Positions 11,400 to 53,507 of a stretch of 64,000 nucleotides of DNA are shown here, one piece after another (the stretch's first letter is position 1; every line of letters starts with the position of its first letter). The translations under genes were made by a program, and so were the position numbers. Source of the stretch: Alloiococcus otitis ATCC 51267 (GTDB lineage Bacteria > Bacillota > Bacilli > Lactobacillales > Carnobacteriaceae_A); contig NZ_JH992958.1 of assembly GCF_000315445.1 (NCBI RefSeq), positions 194,180-258,179 on the forward strand, read 5' to 3'. The notes beneath the pieces are model-generated. The model searched no databases. It had not been told where the DNA came from and worked only from the letters and a program-made list of their open reading frames with translations.

Positions 11400-13112
11400 A
11401 TGAAAGAAAAGCTTTATAAGGAATTAGTAAAAGAGTTGTACCGAGATAATAAGTTCTATCTTCTTGGTACTCTTGCCGTGGCTTTTGGGACAGCAGCGAT
11501 CAATGTGGCCCTCTCTTGGTTACTCCAGATGGCTATTGATATTGCTACGGGAGAAGCGTCTATGACTTTTATGCAAGTCCTTTACTTGGCACTTGCCTTT
11601 ATCCTCTTAACAGTTGTTATCATGGCCCTAAATGCCTATTTTTTCCCCCGTTATATTAAAAGAGCGATGGTCAATTATAAGCAGTATTTGCTCCAAAAGC
11701 TTTTACGTAAAAACATAGCCGACTTTAGCCAACTGGGGAAATCGGTGTATTTATCCGCCCTAACCAATGATACCAAGGTCATTGAAGAGAAATACGTCCG
11801 GCAACAAATTGCCCTAATCACTGAAATCGTAACCTTCATTGGGGCTTTAGCTTTTATGCTGTACTTATCTGTATTAATGACCCTAGTCTCCATTGCTATC
11901 ACCATGATTCCTGTAATATCTTCATTAATTACGGGCTCGCGCCTAGTTAAGATTGAGCAAGTTATTTCCAAGAAAAATTCGACTTTTGTGGGCATTATTT
12001 CAGACTTTATCAATGGCTTCCCCTTGGTTAAAAACTTTAAGGCCGAAAAACAAATTGCAAAACACTTGGGTCAAAGCAATGAAAATTTAGAAGAAAACAA
12101 AAAACAATTAGAGAACAGTCGATTAACCATTAGCTTATTTAGTCAGGGGTCTGGCATTTTTACCCAGTTAGCTGTCACCATGTTTGGAGCTTATTTAGTC
12201 CTGAATGACCAAGGCTTTACAGCTGGGATGATCATTTCCTTTGTGAATTTAATGAACTTTATCATTAGCCCAGTGGTCAACCTGCCGACTATGATCTCAG
12301 AAAGAAGGGCTGCCTTAGGACTAATCAAGAAGGCTGCCTCTTTCCTCGATCCAGGGGAGGCTGACCCAGATCAACAGATGACTCCACTACCCAGCCTGGA
12401 AGAATCGATTAAACTACAATCAGTTTCCTTTGCCTATCCTGGAGGGGATACAATCCTGAAAGATCTTGACTGGGAGTTTAAAAGGGGCAAGTCCTACGCC
12501 ATCGTAGGGGCTTCTGGTTCAGGCAAATCAACCTTATTAAAATTACTGATGAAAAACCAGCAACCAGTATCTGGAAATATTTATTATGACCAAATTAACT
12601 TGAAGGATGCCAAACTAGATGCTTTATATGAAGAAGTCAGCCTGATAGACCAGGATGTTTTTATTTTTAATGCCAGCATTCTAGATAACTTGACAATGTT
12701 CCAAGACTTTGACGAGGACCAAATTCAAGAAGTGATTGACCAAGCTTCCCTCCGCAAGCTAGTTAATGATAAAGGACTCTCCTATTCCTGTGGGGAAAAT
12801 GGGGTTAACCTATCCGGCGGTGAAAAGCAACGCATTGCCATCGGAAGAGCCTTATTGAAAAATTCCTCCATTTTTTTAACAGACGAAGCCACTTCTGCCT
12901 TAGACAAGGAAACGGCTTATCAAATTACAAATGATATTTTAAACTTAAGTGAAAAAACCAAAATTATGATCACCCACTCTTTGGCTAAAGGCCTATTAGA
13001 ACAGTATGATGAAATTCTGGTCTTGAAGAATGGCAATATAGCCGAATCAGGCAGTTTTGCTGATTTAGTTGAAGCAAATGGCTACTTTAACTACCTGTAT
13101 TCCATTGCTTAA
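11400..13112 (+). CDS. ABC exporter, fused membrane and ATPase domains
   Basis: 570 residues in the TMD-NBD order of exporters. About six membrane segments lie between residues 18 and 310; the ATPase part has Walker A GASGSGKST (near 368), the signature LSGGEKQRIAIGRALL (near 470), Walker B with LTDEATSALD, and the H-loop ITHS. The ATG follows AAGGGGG. The family exports peptides, lipids or drugs as homo- or heterodimers. Another fused exporter begins 185 bp downstream on the same strand, so the two could form a heterodimer, but the gap is AT-rich and may hold a separate promoter. Substrate cannot be told from sequence. Confidence 0.88.
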   Translation: MKEKLYKELVKELYRDNKFYLLGTLAVAFGTAAINVALSWLLQMAIDIATGEASMTFMQVLYLALAFILLTVVIMALNAYFFPRYIKRAMVNYKQYLLQKLLRKNIADFSQLGKSVYLSALTNDTKVIEEKYVRQQIALITEIVTFIGALAFMLYLSVLMTLVSIAITMIPVISSLITGSRLVKIEQVISKKNSTFVGIISDFINGFPLVKNFKAEKQIAKHLGQSNENLEENKKQLENSRLTISLFSQGSGIFTQLAVTMFGAYLVLNDQGFTAGMIISFVNLMNFIISPVVNLPTMISERRAALGLIKKAASFLDPGEADPDQQMTPLPSLEESIKLQSVSFAYPGGDTILKDLDWEFKRGKSYAIVGASGSGKSTLLKLLMKNQQPVSGNIYYDQINLKDAKLDALYEEVSLIDQDVFIFNASILDNLTMFQDFDEDQIQEVIDQASLRKLVNDKGLSYSCGENGVNLSGGEKQRIAIGRALLKNSSIFLTDEATSALDKETAYQITNDILNLSEKTKIMITHSLAKGLLEQYDEILVLKNGNIAESGSFADLVEANGYFNYLYSIA

Positions 13113-13297: not shown

Positions 13298-14905
13298 ATG
13301 TCAACTTACATAAAAGCTTATTGGAAGGAAAACCTCCTTCTTTTATTCATCATTACTGTTGGGGCTGGAGCCCAGATTTTGGCTGGTATTTTAAATGCCC
13401 GTGCCCTCAACTCCTTGATCGCCTTTAATTGGACCCAGTTCTTCTGGTCCATGCTAGCTATTGTCCTCATGCTAGGCTTGTATGTCTTGTCTCTCCTCTT
13501 CCGGATTCCCTACGAAGCCAAGGTCATCCAGCTCATGGTCACCCAGATCCGGACAGATATTACAGAAAGTTTGCAAGACCTCACCTACCAGGAATTCCAC
13601 CAACACGAAGCCTCTGCCTTTATCTCCTGGCTGAACAACGATATAACCACTATCGAATCAACTGGCTTTACCAACCTCTACGCCTGTATCACCATGATTA
13701 TCGAAGCCCTTTTTGCAACTGTTTCTCTAATCTTCTTCCACTGGGGTATTGTTCTTTTCGCCTTCGCCATTTCCCTTTTAACTTATTTCCTGCCCATGCT
13801 GGTCAAAAAACGGGTCCAAGACTCTACCCTTGAGATGACTCAGGAACAGGAAAAATTTGTCGGAACAGTGACCAGTGTCTTGCAAGGTTTTGACACCCTT
13901 TTTTCTTATAACTTGGTCTCCCGTATCAGGGACCGGGTCTACCAAGCCTCCCAAGACTTGGCCGATAAAAAAGTTGACCAGCGGAAACAATTGACCTACA
14001 GTGCCATTCTTGGGGCTTCCGGGAACCTCTTAGGCCAGAGTGGTATCTTGGTTTTAACGGGTTACCTAGCCCTCCAACAAATTGTAACGATCGGGTCCAT
14101 TAACGCCACCGAGGCCTTGAGTAATAAGATCTTTAACAGTGTGGGCAATATTACCAACACCATTTTGGAGATCAAAAGTGTTACCCCCATCTTTGAAAAA
14201 TTCCAATCCCTCAAAAACACTGACCGGCCTCAATCCCAATCTTTTGAAGTGGCCAACAACACTATCTCCCTTAACCAATTGAACTATACTTATGACCAAG
14301 GTGACCAGCTCTGGGACCAGGGTGTTTCTTATGACTTCACCCAGAATGGGAAATACGCTATCCTTGGCCCAAGTGGGAGTGGGAAAAGTACCCTCTTTAA
14401 TATCTTAAACGGCAAACTAACCGACTACCAAGGATCCTTAAGAATTTGTGGCAATGAGATCAAGGAAACTAGGGGAGAAGATATCCGGGAGGAAGTTATG
14501 TACCTAGACCAAACCCCTTATATTTTTGAAGGGACCATTTTGGATAATATTAGCCTGGGTGAGACCTTTAGTGAAGACCAAGTCTGGCAAGCCCTGGCAG
14601 AAGCCGGCCTAACAGACTATGTCAAAGGCTTGGCGAATGGCCTAGATACCCCAGTAGGCGAAGGCGGCCGGTCCCTATCCGGTGGGCAAAAGCAACGCCT
14701 GGCCTTGGCAAGGGGCTTTATCCGGCATAAAAATATTGTCTTGGTCGACGAGGGAACCTCCAGTCTGGACCAAGAAGCTGCCCTCAATATTGAAAGAAAT
14801 CTTGTCACCAACCCCCAATTAACCGTCATCATGATCACCCACAATCTGAGGTCTGAAATTGAAGCCGAACTGGATGGAGTCTTGGACCTAGCTCAGTTTA
14901 TCTAA
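13298..14905 (+). CDS. ABC exporter, fused membrane and ATPase domains
   Basis: 535 residues, TMD-NBD. Walker A GPSGSGKST near residue 357, signature LSGGQKQRLALARGF near 460, Walker B LVDEGTSSLD, H-loop ITHN. It is visibly similar to the 532-residue exporter at 18285-19883: both share the FHQ...SWL.ND segment near residue 100, a GQSGI/GQVGI..LTGYLAL helix, and QKQRL.(L/I)AR. This copy lies next to the 570-residue exporter, the other copy next to the Rgg regulator. The start has GGTGG five to six bases before the ATG. Export of a small peptide is plausible but not shown. Confidence 0.87.
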   Translation: MSTYIKAYWKENLLLLFIITVGAGAQILAGILNARALNSLIAFNWTQFFWSMLAIVLMLGLYVLSLLFRIPYEAKVIQLMVTQIRTDITESLQDLTYQEFHQHEASAFISWLNNDITTIESTGFTNLYACITMIIEALFATVSLIFFHWGIVLFAFAISLLTYFLPMLVKKRVQDSTLEMTQEQEKFVGTVTSVLQGFDTLFSYNLVSRIRDRVYQASQDLADKKVDQRKQLTYSAILGASGNLLGQSGILVLTGYLALQQIVTIGSINATEALSNKIFNSVGNITNTILEIKSVTPIFEKFQSLKNTDRPQSQSFEVANNTISLNQLNYTYDQGDQLWDQGVSYDFTQNGKYAILGPSGSGKSTLFNILNGKLTDYQGSLRICGNEIKETRGEDIREEVMYLDQTPYIFEGTILDNISLGETFSEDQVWQALAEAGLTDYVKGLANGLDTPVGEGGRSLSGGQKQRLALARGFIRHKNIVLVDEGTSSLDQEAALNIERNLVTNPQLTVIMITHNLRSEIEAELDGVLDLAQFI

Positions 14906-16998: not shown

Positions 16999-17048
16999 AT
17001 GAGGTCAGCAAAAGCCCCCAGCTTACTTAATCTATTCAAAACAATCAG

Positions 17049-17084
17049 AAAAGCCAAACTAGGTCAAACTAGCTTGGCTTTTTT
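17049..17084. terminator. Intrinsic terminator after bioY
   Basis: AAAAGCCAA (17049-17057) pairs with TTGGCTTTT (17074-17082); inner CTAG elements extend the stem; six Ts follow the plus-strand arm. It isolates bioY from the small ORF at 17187. Confidence 0.85.
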
Positions 17085-17103
17085 GCTGTCACATATAAAC
17101 TAT

Positions 17104-17154
17104 TTTGTCACTTACGACAAATCACCCTTGGCCAAATCCGCGCCAGACTATACT
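17104..17154 (+). promoter_or_regulatory. Putative Rgg operator and promoter of the short-peptide ORF
   Basis: A perfect 6-bp inverted repeat TTTGTC-ACTTAC-GACAAA spans 17104-17121. A -10-like TATACT lies at 17149-17154 with only a poor -35 (TTGGCC, 17128-17133, spacing 15), as expected of an activated promoter. The dyad centre is about 48 bp before the likely start of transcription, a typical activator position. Assignment to the neighbouring Rgg protein is inference. Confidence 0.5.
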
Positions 17155-17186
17155 AAAGCTAGTCCAAATGAAGGGAGGTCATCCTT

Positions 17187-17246
17187 ATGGAAGTCGGGTT
17201 AACAGGCATTAAAATTGATATTGATGTTGTCATTATTAAAGATTAA
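17187..17246 (+). CDS. 19-residue SHP-like pheromone precursor candidate
   Basis: ATG (17187) to TAA (17246) encodes MEVGLTGIKIDIDVVIIKD. GGAGG (17174-17178) lies eight bases ahead, an ideal ribosome site for so small a frame. The C-terminal half is an acidic residue followed by aliphatics (DIDVVII), the pattern seen in streptococcal short hydrophobic peptides that end DIIIIVGG or similar. It lies tail-to-tail with an Rgg-family regulator, one of the known arrangements of rgg/shp pairs, and has its own dyad-plus-promoter region. Against it: it lacks the terminal Gly-Gly, has a weak hydrophobic N-terminal part, and ends in Lys-Asp. Expression and processing are unproven. Confidence 0.55.
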   Translation: MEVGLTGIKIDIDVVIIKD

Positions 17247-17351
17247 GTTTGACGGGGTCCAAAGTAGAAACCAGCCCTTGCCACCGAGAAGAAATTTTCC
17301 ATTAGTTGAAAGTCATGGTCCGGAATAAGACTAGCCCCCTGCCACAAAGAC

Positions 17352-18191
17352 TTAGCCGGAATTTTTTTCAAGAAAGGCTGCTAAACTGGCCGCCTCTTGG
17401 GTGTAGCCATTGGTCTTGAGGAAGTTTAACTGGGCCTGGCACTGGGCTAAATGGTCTGGGTCATGACCTTGCAAATAGCGGACCAGGGACTTGTAAAAGT
17501 GCATGACAACATGGTAATAGAGCTGTTCGGGACGGGTGACCAGGACTTTTTGGGTCTGGTCTAGGTAGTAGCTGGCCAGAGCCAGCTCGCCTTGGTCTAG
17601 CAAGACTTCGATAAAGTTCAGCAAGATGACACCGATGACCTCCCTCTCCCCCTTATTGTATTGGTCCAAGTTCTTGGACAAGATGGCCGAGACAAAGACC
17701 TGGTTACTCGGGATGTCATACAAGGAGACAAAATTAGCATAAATGGATAACTTATAAAGGTTCCAGTTTGGAAGGGAAAAGAGTTTTTCCTTAATCAGGT
17801 CTTTGCTGGTCTCAGAAATAGCCCGGCCTTGGTCTAAGTCATAGAGGCAACTTTCCCCTAGGGCAATTATGGTCTGGGCCTTTTCTGTATCAAGCTTGCG
17901 GTAGGCAGCCATAATTTTTTTGATCCCGGCCAGGTCTCCCTGGTAATGAAGGGTGATAAGAGCTTCCATGTCTTTTTTAAAGGAGTGGGGTGTTTGCAGG
18001 TAGTGGTTTAAAAAGTCATCTAAGGGAATGGCATGGCTGGCCAGCAGGTCAAAGAGGTCTGTGGCCGTAATCCGGTGTTGGTCTTTTTCGACCTTGGCAT
18101 AGTAGGAGGTTGACAAGACGCCAGCAGCCATCTCACTCAAGGTCAGGCCCATATTGAGCCGGTATTCTTTTAATAAATCACCAATGGTCAT
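17352..18191 (-). CDS. Rgg/GadR/MutR-family transcriptional regulator
   Basis: 279 residues. An N-terminal XRE-type helix-turn-helix (about 1-65; LKEYRLNMGLTLSEMAAGVLSTSYYAKVEK, then DLFDLLASHAIPLDDF) is followed by an all-helical region of about 200 residues typical of the tetratricopeptide-like peptide-binding domain of Rgg proteins. Known family members bind imported short peptides and control virulence, bacteriocin or transporter genes. GAAGG precedes the ATG. It is divergent from the 532-residue ABC exporter (93-bp shared promoter region) and convergent with the 19-codon peptide ORF. A peptide-responsive switch controlling the exporter and the peptide gene is the natural inference. Confidence 0.85.
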   Translation of the reverse strand: MTIGDLLKEYRLNMGLTLSEMAAGVLSTSYYAKVEKDQHRITATDLFDLLASHAIPLDDFLNHYLQTPHSFKKDMEALITLHYQGDLAGIKKIMAAYRKLDTEKAQTIIALGESCLYDLDQGRAISETSKDLIKEKLFSLPNWNLYKLSIYANFVSLYDIPSNQVFVSAILSKNLDQYNKGEREVIGVILLNFIEVLLDQGELALASYYLDQTQKVLVTRPEQLYYHVVMHFYKSLVRYLQGHDPDHLAQCQAQLNFLKTNGYTQEAASLAAFLEKNSG

Positions 18192-18232
18192 GCTGACCCC
18201 TTCTTTCTCTTAAGCCAAACTGGCCTAGTAGC

Positions 18233-18262
18233 TTGACCTTGTGATGGTAGTCAAATTATACA
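18233..18262 (+). promoter_or_regulatory. Promoter of the Rgg-linked ABC exporter
   Basis: -35 TTGACC (18233-18238) and -10 TATACA (18257-18262) with an 18-bp spacer; start codon 23 bp downstream. It lies in the 93-bp gap shared with the divergent rgg-type gene. Confidence 0.6.
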
Positions 18263-18284: not shown

Positions 18285-19883
18285 ATGAAAGAACTAGTAA
18301 AGGAATTCAAATTTCGAAATATAGTCATTATCCTGGTCTTGGCTAGTGTCAGCTTGGCTGAAATTGCCAGTAGTTTCACCCTGTCCAGAGCTGTCAATTC
18401 CATCGTTCAACCTGACTTGACCAAGTTTGTCCAGTCCATTCTTTTAACCCTCCTTATCTTTTTTATGTACTTGACCTTCACCTACTTCAGGATCGTCTAC
18501 CAGGGGCAAACGGAAGAAAAAATGAAGGTCTCCTTAAGAGAGGGACTGGTCGACCGGCTCGTCAAAACAGACTACCAGACCTTCCACCAAAAGAAACCAG
18601 CTAGCTACTCCTCCTGGCTGATGAATGATGTCAGGCAGGTTGCCACTGACTCCATCAGCCCATTTTACGACCTCTTGGCTGGCATTATCTCCCTAGTCCT
18701 GAGCCTCCTCACCCTGCTCACCCTCCACTGGCTTTTAATCGCCTATACTCTCTTGTCCCTTGCCTTGATTTTACTCCTTCCAAGACTCTTTAAATCAACC
18801 ATTGTCCAGGAAACAATCAAGCTCAGCCAGGGCCATGAAAGTTACTTAAGTAAGGTGACTGACTTTTTAGCTGCCTATGATACTCTCTTTTCTTACCGCC
18901 AGCTCCCCTTTATGAAAGACCAACTAGCTAACCAGGCCAAGGACTTGTCCGATAAGTCCTTCCACTACACCAAAGTCATGGCTTGGGTGGCGGTGGCAGG
19001 TGGCTTGGGCAATGTCTTGGGCCAGGTAGGGATTATCGCTCTGACCGGTTACCTAGCTTTGACCGGCCAGGTGACAGTGGGGTCCATTATGGTCACCACC
19101 AGCCTGGCAGGGAACATTTTTAACAGCTCAGGTAACCTGAGCCAGATGATCTCCCGGATCCAGTCCAGCCAGCCTATTTTCGAAAAATTCCAAAGGGTCC
19201 AGGCCAGTCCCAAAAGCAAGGAGCAAACACTGACCACCCAGCCCCTCACTGGGGGCTATAGCTTGGAAAATGTTCACTTTGCCTACGCGGACAAGCAGGT
19301 AATTGATAACTTCACAATGGACTTTCACCTGGCCAAGAACTATGCCATTGTTGGGGAAAGTGGCAGTGGCAAGTCCACTCTCTTGAACCTAATTGGTGGC
19401 AGGTTAGACCACTACCAAGGCTCGATCCGACTAGCTGGCAAGGAACTTAACCAGTCTACTTACCAGGAACTCTTTGACCAGGTCCTCTATATCGACCAAA
19501 ATCCCCATATCTTTGACGGGACTATCCGGGAAAACTTGGAAATGGGCCAAACCTACTCCGATGAGGACCTTTACCAAGCCTTAGACCAAGTCCACTTGGC
19601 TGACTTGATAGCTGGGCATTCAGACGGCCTGGACTACTATATTGGTGAGGGCGGGAAAATGCTGTCCGGTGGGCAAAAGCAACGCCTGTCCATCGCCCGG
19701 TCCCTACTCAGGGACAAAAAAATCCTCCTCTTAGACGAGGTAACCTCCAGCTTAGACCAGGAAACTGCCATCAGCATCGAAAAGCTCCTCTTAAGTGACG
19801 AAGAAACCAGTGTGATCATGATCACCCACAATCTCCGGGACCAAGTGGCCGGCATGATTGACCACACCTTAGTGCTCAGCTAG
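18285..19883 (+). CDS. ABC exporter divergent from Rgg-type regulator
   Basis: 532 residues, TMD-NBD exporter. Walker A GESGSGKST near residue 356, signature LSGGQKQRLSIARSLL near 459, Walker B LLDEVTSSLD, H-loop ITHN. It is a paralogue of the 535-residue exporter at 13298. GTGGAGG precedes the ATG. The short intergenic region shared with the Rgg-type gene, which carries a good promoter, suggests regulation by that protein. Peptide export, possibly of the pheromone candidate itself, is a hypothesis; streptococcal SHPs use a different (EcsAB/PptAB-type) exporter. Ends at a bidirectional terminator shared with the aco operon. Confidence 0.87.
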   Translation: MKELVKEFKFRNIVIILVLASVSLAEIASSFTLSRAVNSIVQPDLTKFVQSILLTLLIFFMYLTFTYFRIVYQGQTEEKMKVSLREGLVDRLVKTDYQTFHQKKPASYSSWLMNDVRQVATDSISPFYDLLAGIISLVLSLLTLLTLHWLLIAYTLLSLALILLLPRLFKSTIVQETIKLSQGHESYLSKVTDFLAAYDTLFSYRQLPFMKDQLANQAKDLSDKSFHYTKVMAWVAVAGGLGNVLGQVGIIALTGYLALTGQVTVGSIMVTTSLAGNIFNSSGNLSQMISRIQSSQPIFEKFQRVQASPKSKEQTLTTQPLTGGYSLENVHFAYADKQVIDNFTMDFHLAKNYAIVGESGSGKSTLLNLIGGRLDHYQGSIRLAGKELNQSTYQELFDQVLYIDQNPHIFDGTIRENLEMGQTYSDEDLYQALDQVHLADLIAGHSDGLDYYIGEGGKMLSGGQKQRLSIARSLLRDKKILLLDEVTSSLDQETAISIEKLLLSDEETSVIMITHNLRDQVAGMIDHTLVLS

Positions 19884-52451: not shown

Positions 52452-53003
52452 TTGATCAATAATGTTACTTTAGTTGGAAGATTAACCCGTGATGCTGAAC
52501 TCAGATATACAGGTAACGGGACAGCAGTGACATCTTTTACCATTGCTGCAGACCGCCCCTTTAAAAATAGCCAGGGAAACCGGGACGCAGACTTTATTAA
52601 CTGTGTTGCTTGGCGTAGGACTGCCGAAACTGTCGCCAGTTTTACGAAAAAAGGTTCCTTGGTAGGGGTTGTTGGTCGGATCCAGACCCGTAATTATGAA
52701 AATAATGAAGGGCGGACGGTTTACGTTACTGAAGTAGTTGTTGAAAGCTTCCAAATGTTGGAGCCGAAATCAGTTACTGATAGCCGTCGTTCCCAAAGCG
52801 ACCAAACTGGGGGCAACTACCAAGGTCAAAATCAATCTTTCAACACTCAAAACTCTAATGCCTTCAATCAAAATCAGGGACAAAACAACAATTCATTTGG
52901 TCAAGGCGACAATCCATTTGACCAAAATGATTCCCAAGATGAAGATCCCTTTGAAGCTGATGATGATTCAATCCATATTAGTGACGACGATTTACCTTTT
53001 TAA
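52452..53003 (+). CDS. ssb: Single-stranded DNA-binding protein
   Basis: 183 residues with a TTG start after AGAGGAG. OB fold at 1-106 ([36 protein letters not shown]... [49 protein letters not shown]), a Gln/Asn-rich disordered linker, and the acidic interaction tip ending DDDLPF. Protects single-stranded DNA and recruits partners through the tip. Confidence 0.97.
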
Positions 53004-53038
53004 GATTTGATTCAAGCTAAGAAAAGGAGGCGGATAAA

Positions 53039-53275
53039 ATGGCTGGACGTCGCGGAGGAAGAAGACGTAGAAAAGTTGACTTTTTTGCTGCTAACCACAT
53101 TGACTACATCGACTACAAAGATGTAGACCTACTCAAACGTTTCATTTCAGAACGAGGAAAAATCTTACCTCGTCGAGTTACTGGAACTTACGCAAAAAAC
53201 CAACGTAAATTAACGAAAGCAATTAAACGTGCACGTTTTATGGGCTTACTGCCTTACGTTGCGGAAGACAACTAG
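53039..53275 (+). CDS. rpsR: 30S ribosomal protein S18
   Basis: 78 residues: basic start [16 protein letters not shown], then [52 protein letters not shown]. It lacks the zinc-binding cysteines present in some S18 paralogues. AGGAGGCG precedes the ATG. Last gene of rpsF-ssb-rpsR. Confidence 0.97.
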
Positions 53276-53315
53276 TCTTTCCGACTTAAGTGCATTGACG
53301 TTTAATAAAAGCAAT

Positions 53316-53352
53316 AGACTGCCAAGACTTATGAGGTTTGGCAGTCTTTTTT
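53316..53352 (+). terminator. rpsR terminator
   Basis: AGACTGCCAA (53316-53325) pairs with TTGGCAGTCT (53338-53347), followed by six Ts. Confidence 0.9.
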
Positions 53353-53507
53353 ATAGTTAATGCTTGGACTAGCGAGAGGTCCGAAAGATGGGGTGAAAGC
53401 AGTCAGACTCTAGCTTTTACCGGCCTGAGACTAGCCTCAAATTCCTAGCTTGTTTGGCCCATCCATGTTAAAATGGAATAGTTAAAAGCTAAATTAAAGG
53501 AGTACAT

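Follow-up and report, generated by a model that had tools for sequence, protein, structure and literature searches.

A small open reading frame facing an rgg gene in Alloiococcus otitis: a candidate gene for a leaderless peptide under Rgg control

Regulators of the Rgg/SHP type are described as concentrated in streptococci, with the SHP gene either divergent from rgg (groups I and II) or convergent with and overlapping it (group III) (PMC13361665). SHP precursors carry basic residues at the N-terminus followed by a hydrophobic region, likely a PptAB signal (PMC10075063); maturation usually occurs before D/E, and a C-terminal Gly or a central acidic residue is often present (PMC12445099). The leaderless communication peptides (LCPs) were reported to be mostly 8-10 residues long and highly hydrophobic (Aggarwal et al. 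2023, PMC10518010), and their genes are characterized as generally divergent from the receptor gene (PMC13361665). The LCP study also reports a screen of 975 receptors for neighbouring small ORFs, and the induction of a nearby ABC transporter by a synthetic LCP in L. reuteri (PMC10518010).

We analysed a 64,000-nucleotide stretch (hereafter the window) of a 1.8-Mb genome assigned to Alloiococcus otitis; a published 16S primer for Alloiococcus otitidis matched this genome twice and none of 26 other family genomes. In the window, an Rgg regulator of 279 amino acids is encoded at 17352-18191 on the minus strand (Pfam Rgg_C 7.9e-20; TIGR01716 2.8e-20). The protein possesses both the N-terminal HTH and the Rgg C-terminal repeat domain of RRNPPA-type Rgg regulators. 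As an earlier sequence-only reading of this DNA had stated, the regulator gene diverges from an ABC exporter gene, located at 18285-19883 on the plus strand; the product is a half-transporter of 532 amino acids, in which Pfam detected membrane and ATPase domains and no peptidase domain. On the other side of rgg, a small ORF of 19 codons (MEVGLTGIKIDIDVVIIKD) lies on the plus strand at 17187-17246, from the ATG at 17187 to the stop codon ending at 17246, and is arranged tail-to-tail with rgg at a distance of 105 nt. The ribosome site that had been called ideal, as well as this orientation, could be read directly, since the Shine-Dalgarno (SD) sequence GGAGGT is positioned at 17174-17179 on the plus strand, 7 nt before the ATG. 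The strong terminator said to separate the ORF from bioY was also borne out. The inverted repeat 17046-17062/17069-17085 forms a rho-independent hairpin followed by a T-run (about 17049-17085, plus strand), and the RNA fold of 17040-17090 had an energy of -21.4 kcal/mol (z -5.5).

The window contains two further ABC exporter genes, at 11400-13112 and 13298-14905, the latter encoding a protein 37% identical to the exporter beside rgg. Modified-peptide enzymes were sought in the window and rejected, as Pfam analysis of six proteins returned three ABC exporters, an M20 peptidase, BioY and the Rgg. A defence system was also rejected after PADLOC analysis, in which the exporters matched ATPase models and the Rgg weakly matched two HTH models.

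The frequency of such an ORF by chance was estimated from 20,000 dinucleotide shuffles of the 267-bp gap. ATG ORFs 10-60 codons long and preceded by an SD of at least 6 were present in 2.2% of the shuffled gaps, and in 0.24% when an acid-aliphatic heptamer, a criterion defined after the fact, was added. The 2.2% value means that the small ORF by itself is merely suggestive, and it favours the explanation that the ORF occurs by chance, or that the region gives a non-coding transcript facing rgg. The non-coding reading was rejected, as no Rfam family exceeded the cut-off (two sub-threshold hits) and the fold of the ORF was not unusual (z 0.23).

The predicted structure of the Rgg (pLDDT 91.7, pTM 0.70) matched Rgg3 bound to SHP3 with a Z of 21.6 (2.6 Å over 204 residues) and RopB with a Z of 18.8 (6.1 Å over 217 residues). 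The closeness of the model to SHP receptors, the small SD-bearing ORF beside rgg and the existence of convergent SHPs in group III (PMC13361665) are all features shared with Rgg/SHP systems, and would agree with a canonical Rgg/SHP pair. The peptide itself does not agree with this assignment. It starts with MEVGLTGIKI, containing one acidic residue and one lysine, with neither a basic N-terminus nor a hydrophobic leader, and no basic-hydrophobic propeptide is encoded by the window ORF or by its counterparts in two related genomes, G180 and G318 (described below). Aspartates are present in the window peptide, but no D/E mature start is conserved across the counterparts, and a C-terminal Gly is absent in all three. 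The group III genes overlap rgg according to PMC13361665, whereas the window ORF, convergent as well, stops short of it. The acidic-aliphatic C-terminus, regarded in the sequence-only reading as the hallmark of an SHP, had to be given up, as the end is not conserved and the G180 and G318 peptides terminate with KIKIKP and lack aspartate. The proposed SHP-type pair outside the streptococci was therefore retained in part: a small gene is paired with an Rgg under an operator-like dyad, but its SHP type was not supported, and a canonical Rgg/SHP pair is very unlikely here.

The locus was also compared with LCP/RopB systems, with which it shares an Rgg-family receptor, a leaderless short peptide, a palindromic site (predicted here) upstream of the peptide promoter and an ABC transporter, the last as in the L. 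reuteri locus where the synthetic LCP acted on its neighbour (PMC10518010). In contrast to the mostly 8-10 hydrophobic residues and divergent genes given for LCPs in PMC10518010 and PMC13361665, the window peptide consists of 19 residues with alternating polar and hydrophobic positions, six of them charged (E, K, D, D, K, D), and its gene is convergent. The structural match was lower to RopB than to Rgg3, while the clan is not settled by these scores. An LCP of the RopB clan is a highly improbable identity for the peptide. Among the papers returned by literature searches, none dealt with Rgg-linked alternating peptides; loci of the window type may already be among the 975 receptors of the LCP study (PMC10518010).

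A quick tree was constructed from 87 Rgg proteins without RopB, with SH-aLRT as the only support and a long branch for the window Rgg. The window Rgg was placed in a group of 74 proteins (98% SH-aLRT) apart from the 13 others; this group comprised proteins of Aerococcaceae, Carnobacteriaceae, Enterococcaceae and Lactobacillus plus a few others. Within it, the window Rgg paired with that of Allofustis (support 84), not with that of G180.

The perfect dyad TTTGTC-N6-GACAAA (TTTGTCACTTACGACAAA, 17104-17121), 83 nt before the start codon, and the TATACT box (17149-17154, plus strand), both pointed out by the sequence-only reading, were read directly in the DNA. The dyad had been named before an operator matrix was built. 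The matrix, an 18-bp palindrome, was fitted without a starting consensus and with the window excluded, using the 150 bp before each rgg scoring more than 60 bits (79 regions, 62 after removal of near-copies) at 76 loci collected with a five-homologue rgg profile and at others from a further search. The consensus learned upstream of the 62 homologous rgg genes was AaTGTCATATATGACAtT; a site scoring at least 10 was present in 35 of the 62 training regions, and in 31 of these it starts 23-63 bp upstream of rgg. Under this independent matrix, the dyad at 17104 scored 7.1 and ranked 5 of 63,983 window positions, supporting its designation as a predicted Rgg operator. A weak operator-like site (GCTGTCACATATAAACTA, 17085-17102, PWM score 1.1) is located 102 nt before the start codon, 19 bp or about two turns further out than the dyad. 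The exact dyad occurs in two copies in the 1.8-Mb genome, the other of which (C3:53286) lies inside a coding ORF. When one mismatch at most was allowed, 15 genome sites were found for the pattern versus 4 for the reversed one, and because of this genome-wide enrichment the dyad would not carry much weight by itself. The TATACT box, which aligns with TAGAAT in both G180 and G318, was not listed by a sigma-70 scan. A -10 box of this kind without a good -35 fits an activator-dependent promoter.

A search for the dyad near the exporter, suggested along with the original reading, did not find an operator. Between rgg and the exporter gene of the window, the highest score was 2.6 versus 7.1 for the dyad, and the dyad was discarded as an exporter operator. 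The corresponding gaps of G180 and G318 also contained no operator (best scores of -1.6 and 2.3), and operators were present in those of Abiotrophia (22.1), Allofustis (21.3) and Vagococcus acidifermentans (13.7). When homologue regions were compared, an operator was present in 8 of the 10 with a tiny ORF downstream of rgg and in 13 of the 36 without one (p 0.028), so that the two elements were only loosely linked across homologues. The genome has a second rgg (L119 948-3549, G000:C4) that also diverges from an ABC exporter gene; neither an operator scoring above 7 nearby nor a strong-SD ATG tiny ORF behind it was found.

Of 395 genomes of the order searched, 20 including the window's own gave an rgg match at E 1e-22 or better, and the two best matches besides the window's own came from G180 and G318, which belong to one Aerococcaceae-like genus. 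In both genomes, as in the window, rgg is divergent from an exporter gene of the same type, and a tiny ORF with a strong SD lies tail-to-tail with rgg (MEVEVTVTVKIKIKP in G180 and MSIEVSFSIKIKIKP in G318). Multiple alignment placed the G180 element CTTACGACA, the -10 box and the start codon in register with the window, and the window operator was aligned with this element and with CACTTGCGACAA in G318. A CGACA shared by all three units precedes the start codon by 72 nt in the window, 76 nt in G180 and 74 nt in G318. The operator sites were located at -102 (score 1.1) and -83 (7.1) in the window, at -106 (15.5) in G180, and at -105 (6.7) and -85 (3.9) in G318, the weak window site at -102 being the positional equivalent of the distal sites at -106 and -105.

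Several DNA comparisons connected the window unit with that of G180. The start of the window ORF agrees with that of the G180 ORF at 15 of the first 18 bases. This was the top value among the 1,959 ATGs of the window, and none of 39,134 control ATGs from other, partly overlapping loci reached it (best 14); the number for G318 against the window ORF was 8. The G180 unit used as an nhmmer query against the 64 kb detected 17086-17221 at E 0.0063 (13.1 bits) with the next match at E 47, and against 1.2 Mb of other loci it detected G318 at 1.7e-7 and otherwise nothing above 10.3 bits. Local alignment of the window unit with G180 was equalled by none of 1,000 shuffles (z 6.3). The reciprocal nhmmer search with the window unit gave no match at E 50 over all loci, and the window was not found with the G318 unit, whether queried by itself or combined with the G180 unit into a single profile. 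When the sequences were aligned at the start codon and compared without gaps, p was <0.05 in one of six tests (G318, -85 to -40, p 0.0038), local alignments of the window unit to G318, two Abiotrophia genomes, Allofustis and Vagococcus were no better than shuffles, and a 400-nt chunk of the window (53001-53400) reached a raw local score of 90.1 against the G180 unit, versus 88.8 for the window unit. Owing to the failed reciprocal, G318 and ungapped comparisons, the DNA kinship rests mainly on G180 together with the shared layout.

The G180 and G318 ORFs differ at 12 of 48 bases, with rgg being 65% identical, and the amino acid replacements (V/I, T/S, V/F, T/S, V/I and E/S) keep the alternation of polar and hydrophobic residues. 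The last 21 nt to the stop are identical in the two ORFs, and beyond the stop the identity drops to 8/15 and then 14/30. The tail pattern of the two peptides was found in exactly 2 of 76 family genomes, which are the 2 of the 4 genus members having this rgg at E 1e-20. The G180 locus (L152 4948-6752) carries two tandem rgg copies (67% identical) along with one exporter and one tiny ORF. While the failure of the reciprocal search adds to the shuffling result in favour of a chance ORF, the 15/18 start-region match to G180, the rank of the operator among window positions and the codon-wise conservative change between G180 and G318 stand against it, making chance or a non-coding transcript a very unlikely explanation. 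Judged from the sequences compared here, the 19-codon ORF is very likely a gene.

The earlier proposal asked for conservation of the small ORF beside this regulator in related genomes. In relatives outside the genus the outcome was mixed, with tiny peptide ORFs present in Isobaculum, G180 and G318 as well as in two genomes of Abiotrophia. In the latter two, a GTG ORF convergent with rgg ends with KLELEIG, and its SD is weakened in one of them; since the surrounding bases are conserved as well, the conservation of KLELEIG is of little weight. Isobaculum carries MLEIFWEIKVVIKG, which is located on the same strand as rgg and preceded by a strong SD. No tiny ORF was seen beside the rgg of Allofustis, V. 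acidifermentans and G201; in V. acidifermentans, an operator and an SD are present and the usual start codon is absent by reading. The lack of a tiny ORF in Allofustis, whose Rgg pairs with that of the window, counts against the interpretation of the ORF as an Rgg-controlled peptide gene, as do its lack in V. acidifermentans and G201 and the missing operator between rgg and the exporter gene of the window. An exporter of the window's family is located beside rgg in Allofustis, Abiotrophia, V. acidifermentans (as a short ORF), Isobaculum, where it is on the same strand as rgg, G180, G318 and G201.

Tiny peptides with alternating polar and hydrophobic residues were recognized in relatives, such as MEVEVTVTVKIKIKP, MKIRVKLELEIG and HIKIDIKW. 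An alternation score of at least 6 was obtained for 13 of 23 peptides linked to rgg; among other SD ORFs the count was 10 of 178, and among 9,889 ATG ORFs the share was 5.4%. The score was defined after the peptides had been seen, and the 23 were listed by hand with other short ORFs left out. In addition, A. defectiva (L044 6987-7013) has a strong operator and an SD before a GTG ORF, MSYQGDRI, convergent with rgg; G230, the other Abiotrophia genome, did not show this ORF. The E. faecalis plasmid LR962349.1 (L159 5963-6864), which also has predicted narAB, carries a relative of rgg (32%) that is immediately preceded by a strong operator and has an MFS gene diverging from it; no tiny ORF was found downstream of rgg on this plasmid, the one examined of five E. 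faecalis plasmids with an rgg relative.

In loci L043-L118, from Lactobacillus and other genera, ATG ORFs were counted that are 7-45 codons long and have an SD of at least 5. The 22.4 kb downstream of homologous rgg genes contained 25 tiny ORFs on the rgg strand and 2 on the other, and the 86.2 kb downstream of other genes contained 12 and 12, corresponding to an 8-fold higher density behind rgg (25/22.4 kb vs 12/86.2 kb). The ORFs behind rgg were distributed over 12 of 64 regions, with two or more in 6. Five tiny ORFs passed the filter in L050, where reading gave a run of about seven, and L070 shows four. At L050 5831-6400, L070 5123-5450, L065 6980-7640 and L134 of Lactobacillus, the stretch behind rgg holds about four to seven tiny ORFs that are unlike one another, and a strong SD precedes many of them. 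Peptides with [H/R]IGP[PA] recur in L050, L065, L066/L144, L070/L124 and L134, including a HIGP[PA]P..IGTW-like form; the exact HIGPPP pattern was present in 2 of 61 Lactobacillus genomes, so this variant is rare. In a plasmid search with an array, the matched pieces covered 12%, and no annotated gene was located under the 11 matches listed. The L050 and L075 records, labelled Helicobacteraceae and Faecalicatena, contain a Lactobacillus-type rgg in the tree and are possibly misassigned contigs or a recent transfer. Behind the rgg of L. taiwanensis (L076 6973-8894) lie the tiny ORF MEDILFKLLTI, a 92-codon ORF that matched no Pfam family and an ABC exporter of the window's family.

These Lactobacillus loci (L050, L065, L066, L070, L134 and others) are similar to the window in the broad rgg clade, in the strong-SD tiny ORFs, in several alternating peptides and in the operator that most of the tiny-ORF loci (8 of 10) have downstream of rgg. 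They differ from the window in that the tiny ORFs are on the rgg strand, that several unlike peptides are encoded per run, and that the gene diverging from rgg encodes not an ABC exporter but an MFS transporter (4 of 4 tested: L050, L070, L076 and L079). The presence of several unlike tiny ORFs per rgg, more than one ligand needs, points to the main rival interpretation, in which the window peptide is an Rgg-controlled exported product (a leaderless antimicrobial or a modified-peptide precursor) pumped out by the neighbouring exporter, with a different molecule serving as the Rgg ligand. In the window, G180 and G318, however, a single strong-SD tiny ORF is present with no modifying-enzyme gene seen beside it, and it is the tiny ORF that carries the operator, which an autoinduced signal would lead one to expect. 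An ORF suspected by eye of encoding an ATP-grasp-like modifying enzyme (L076 7016-7294) was rejected, showing no Pfam match at E 0.01. We consider an exported product distinct from the ligand unlikely, and far less so than the SHP, LCP and chance interpretations.

It is likely that the tiny gene beside rgg makes a signal or a product under Rgg control. As to which, we favour, on balance, the interpretation that the ORF is a gene translated into a leaderless peptide of 19 residues and directly controlled by the adjacent Rgg, and that the peptide is probably the ligand of this Rgg. The control by Rgg is suggested by the Rgg being of the peptide-receptor type, the palindrome of homologue type just upstream of the promoter, the -10 box without a good -35, and the corresponding unit beside a related rgg in another family. 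Rgg would bind the predicted operator at 17104-17121 and activate the promoter lacking a good -35, the operator and the gene being the steps to which sequence comparison lends support. Export of the peptide might proceed through the adjacent ABC exporter or through EcsAB/PptAB. The peptide would then re-enter the cell via an oligopeptide permease and bind Rgg, and the resulting complex would switch on the peptide promoter, closing a positive loop whose reach may include the exporter. The genome encodes an EcsB homologue, which we take to belong to the PptB family, and five oligopeptide-binding-protein matches above the cut-off; as such proteins are common, they show only that routes for export and import exist. 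From the alternation of polar and hydrophobic residues, an extended strand is suggested as the form in which the peptide acts.

The window peptide is best read as a leaderless peptide of a little-described type, which would work like an LCP or SHP but does not fit the definition of either. We tentatively raise the idea, to which we give somewhat less than an even chance, of a third kind of Rgg-linked peptide besides SHPs and LCPs, leaderless, about 12-19 residues long and with alternating polar and hydrophobic residues (often V/I). It would occur in Alloiococcus, Abiotrophia, the Aerococcaceae-like genus of G180 and G318, Isobaculum, and Lactobacillus as runs of tiny ORFs, and its members may serve as ligands of strand-like form or make up an exported agent of several peptides. 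Filters of the SHP type or based on hydrophobicity would probably miss such peptides, and the signature described here could reveal peptide partners of orphan Rgg regulators in Aerococcaceae, Carnobacteriaceae and Lactobacillus.
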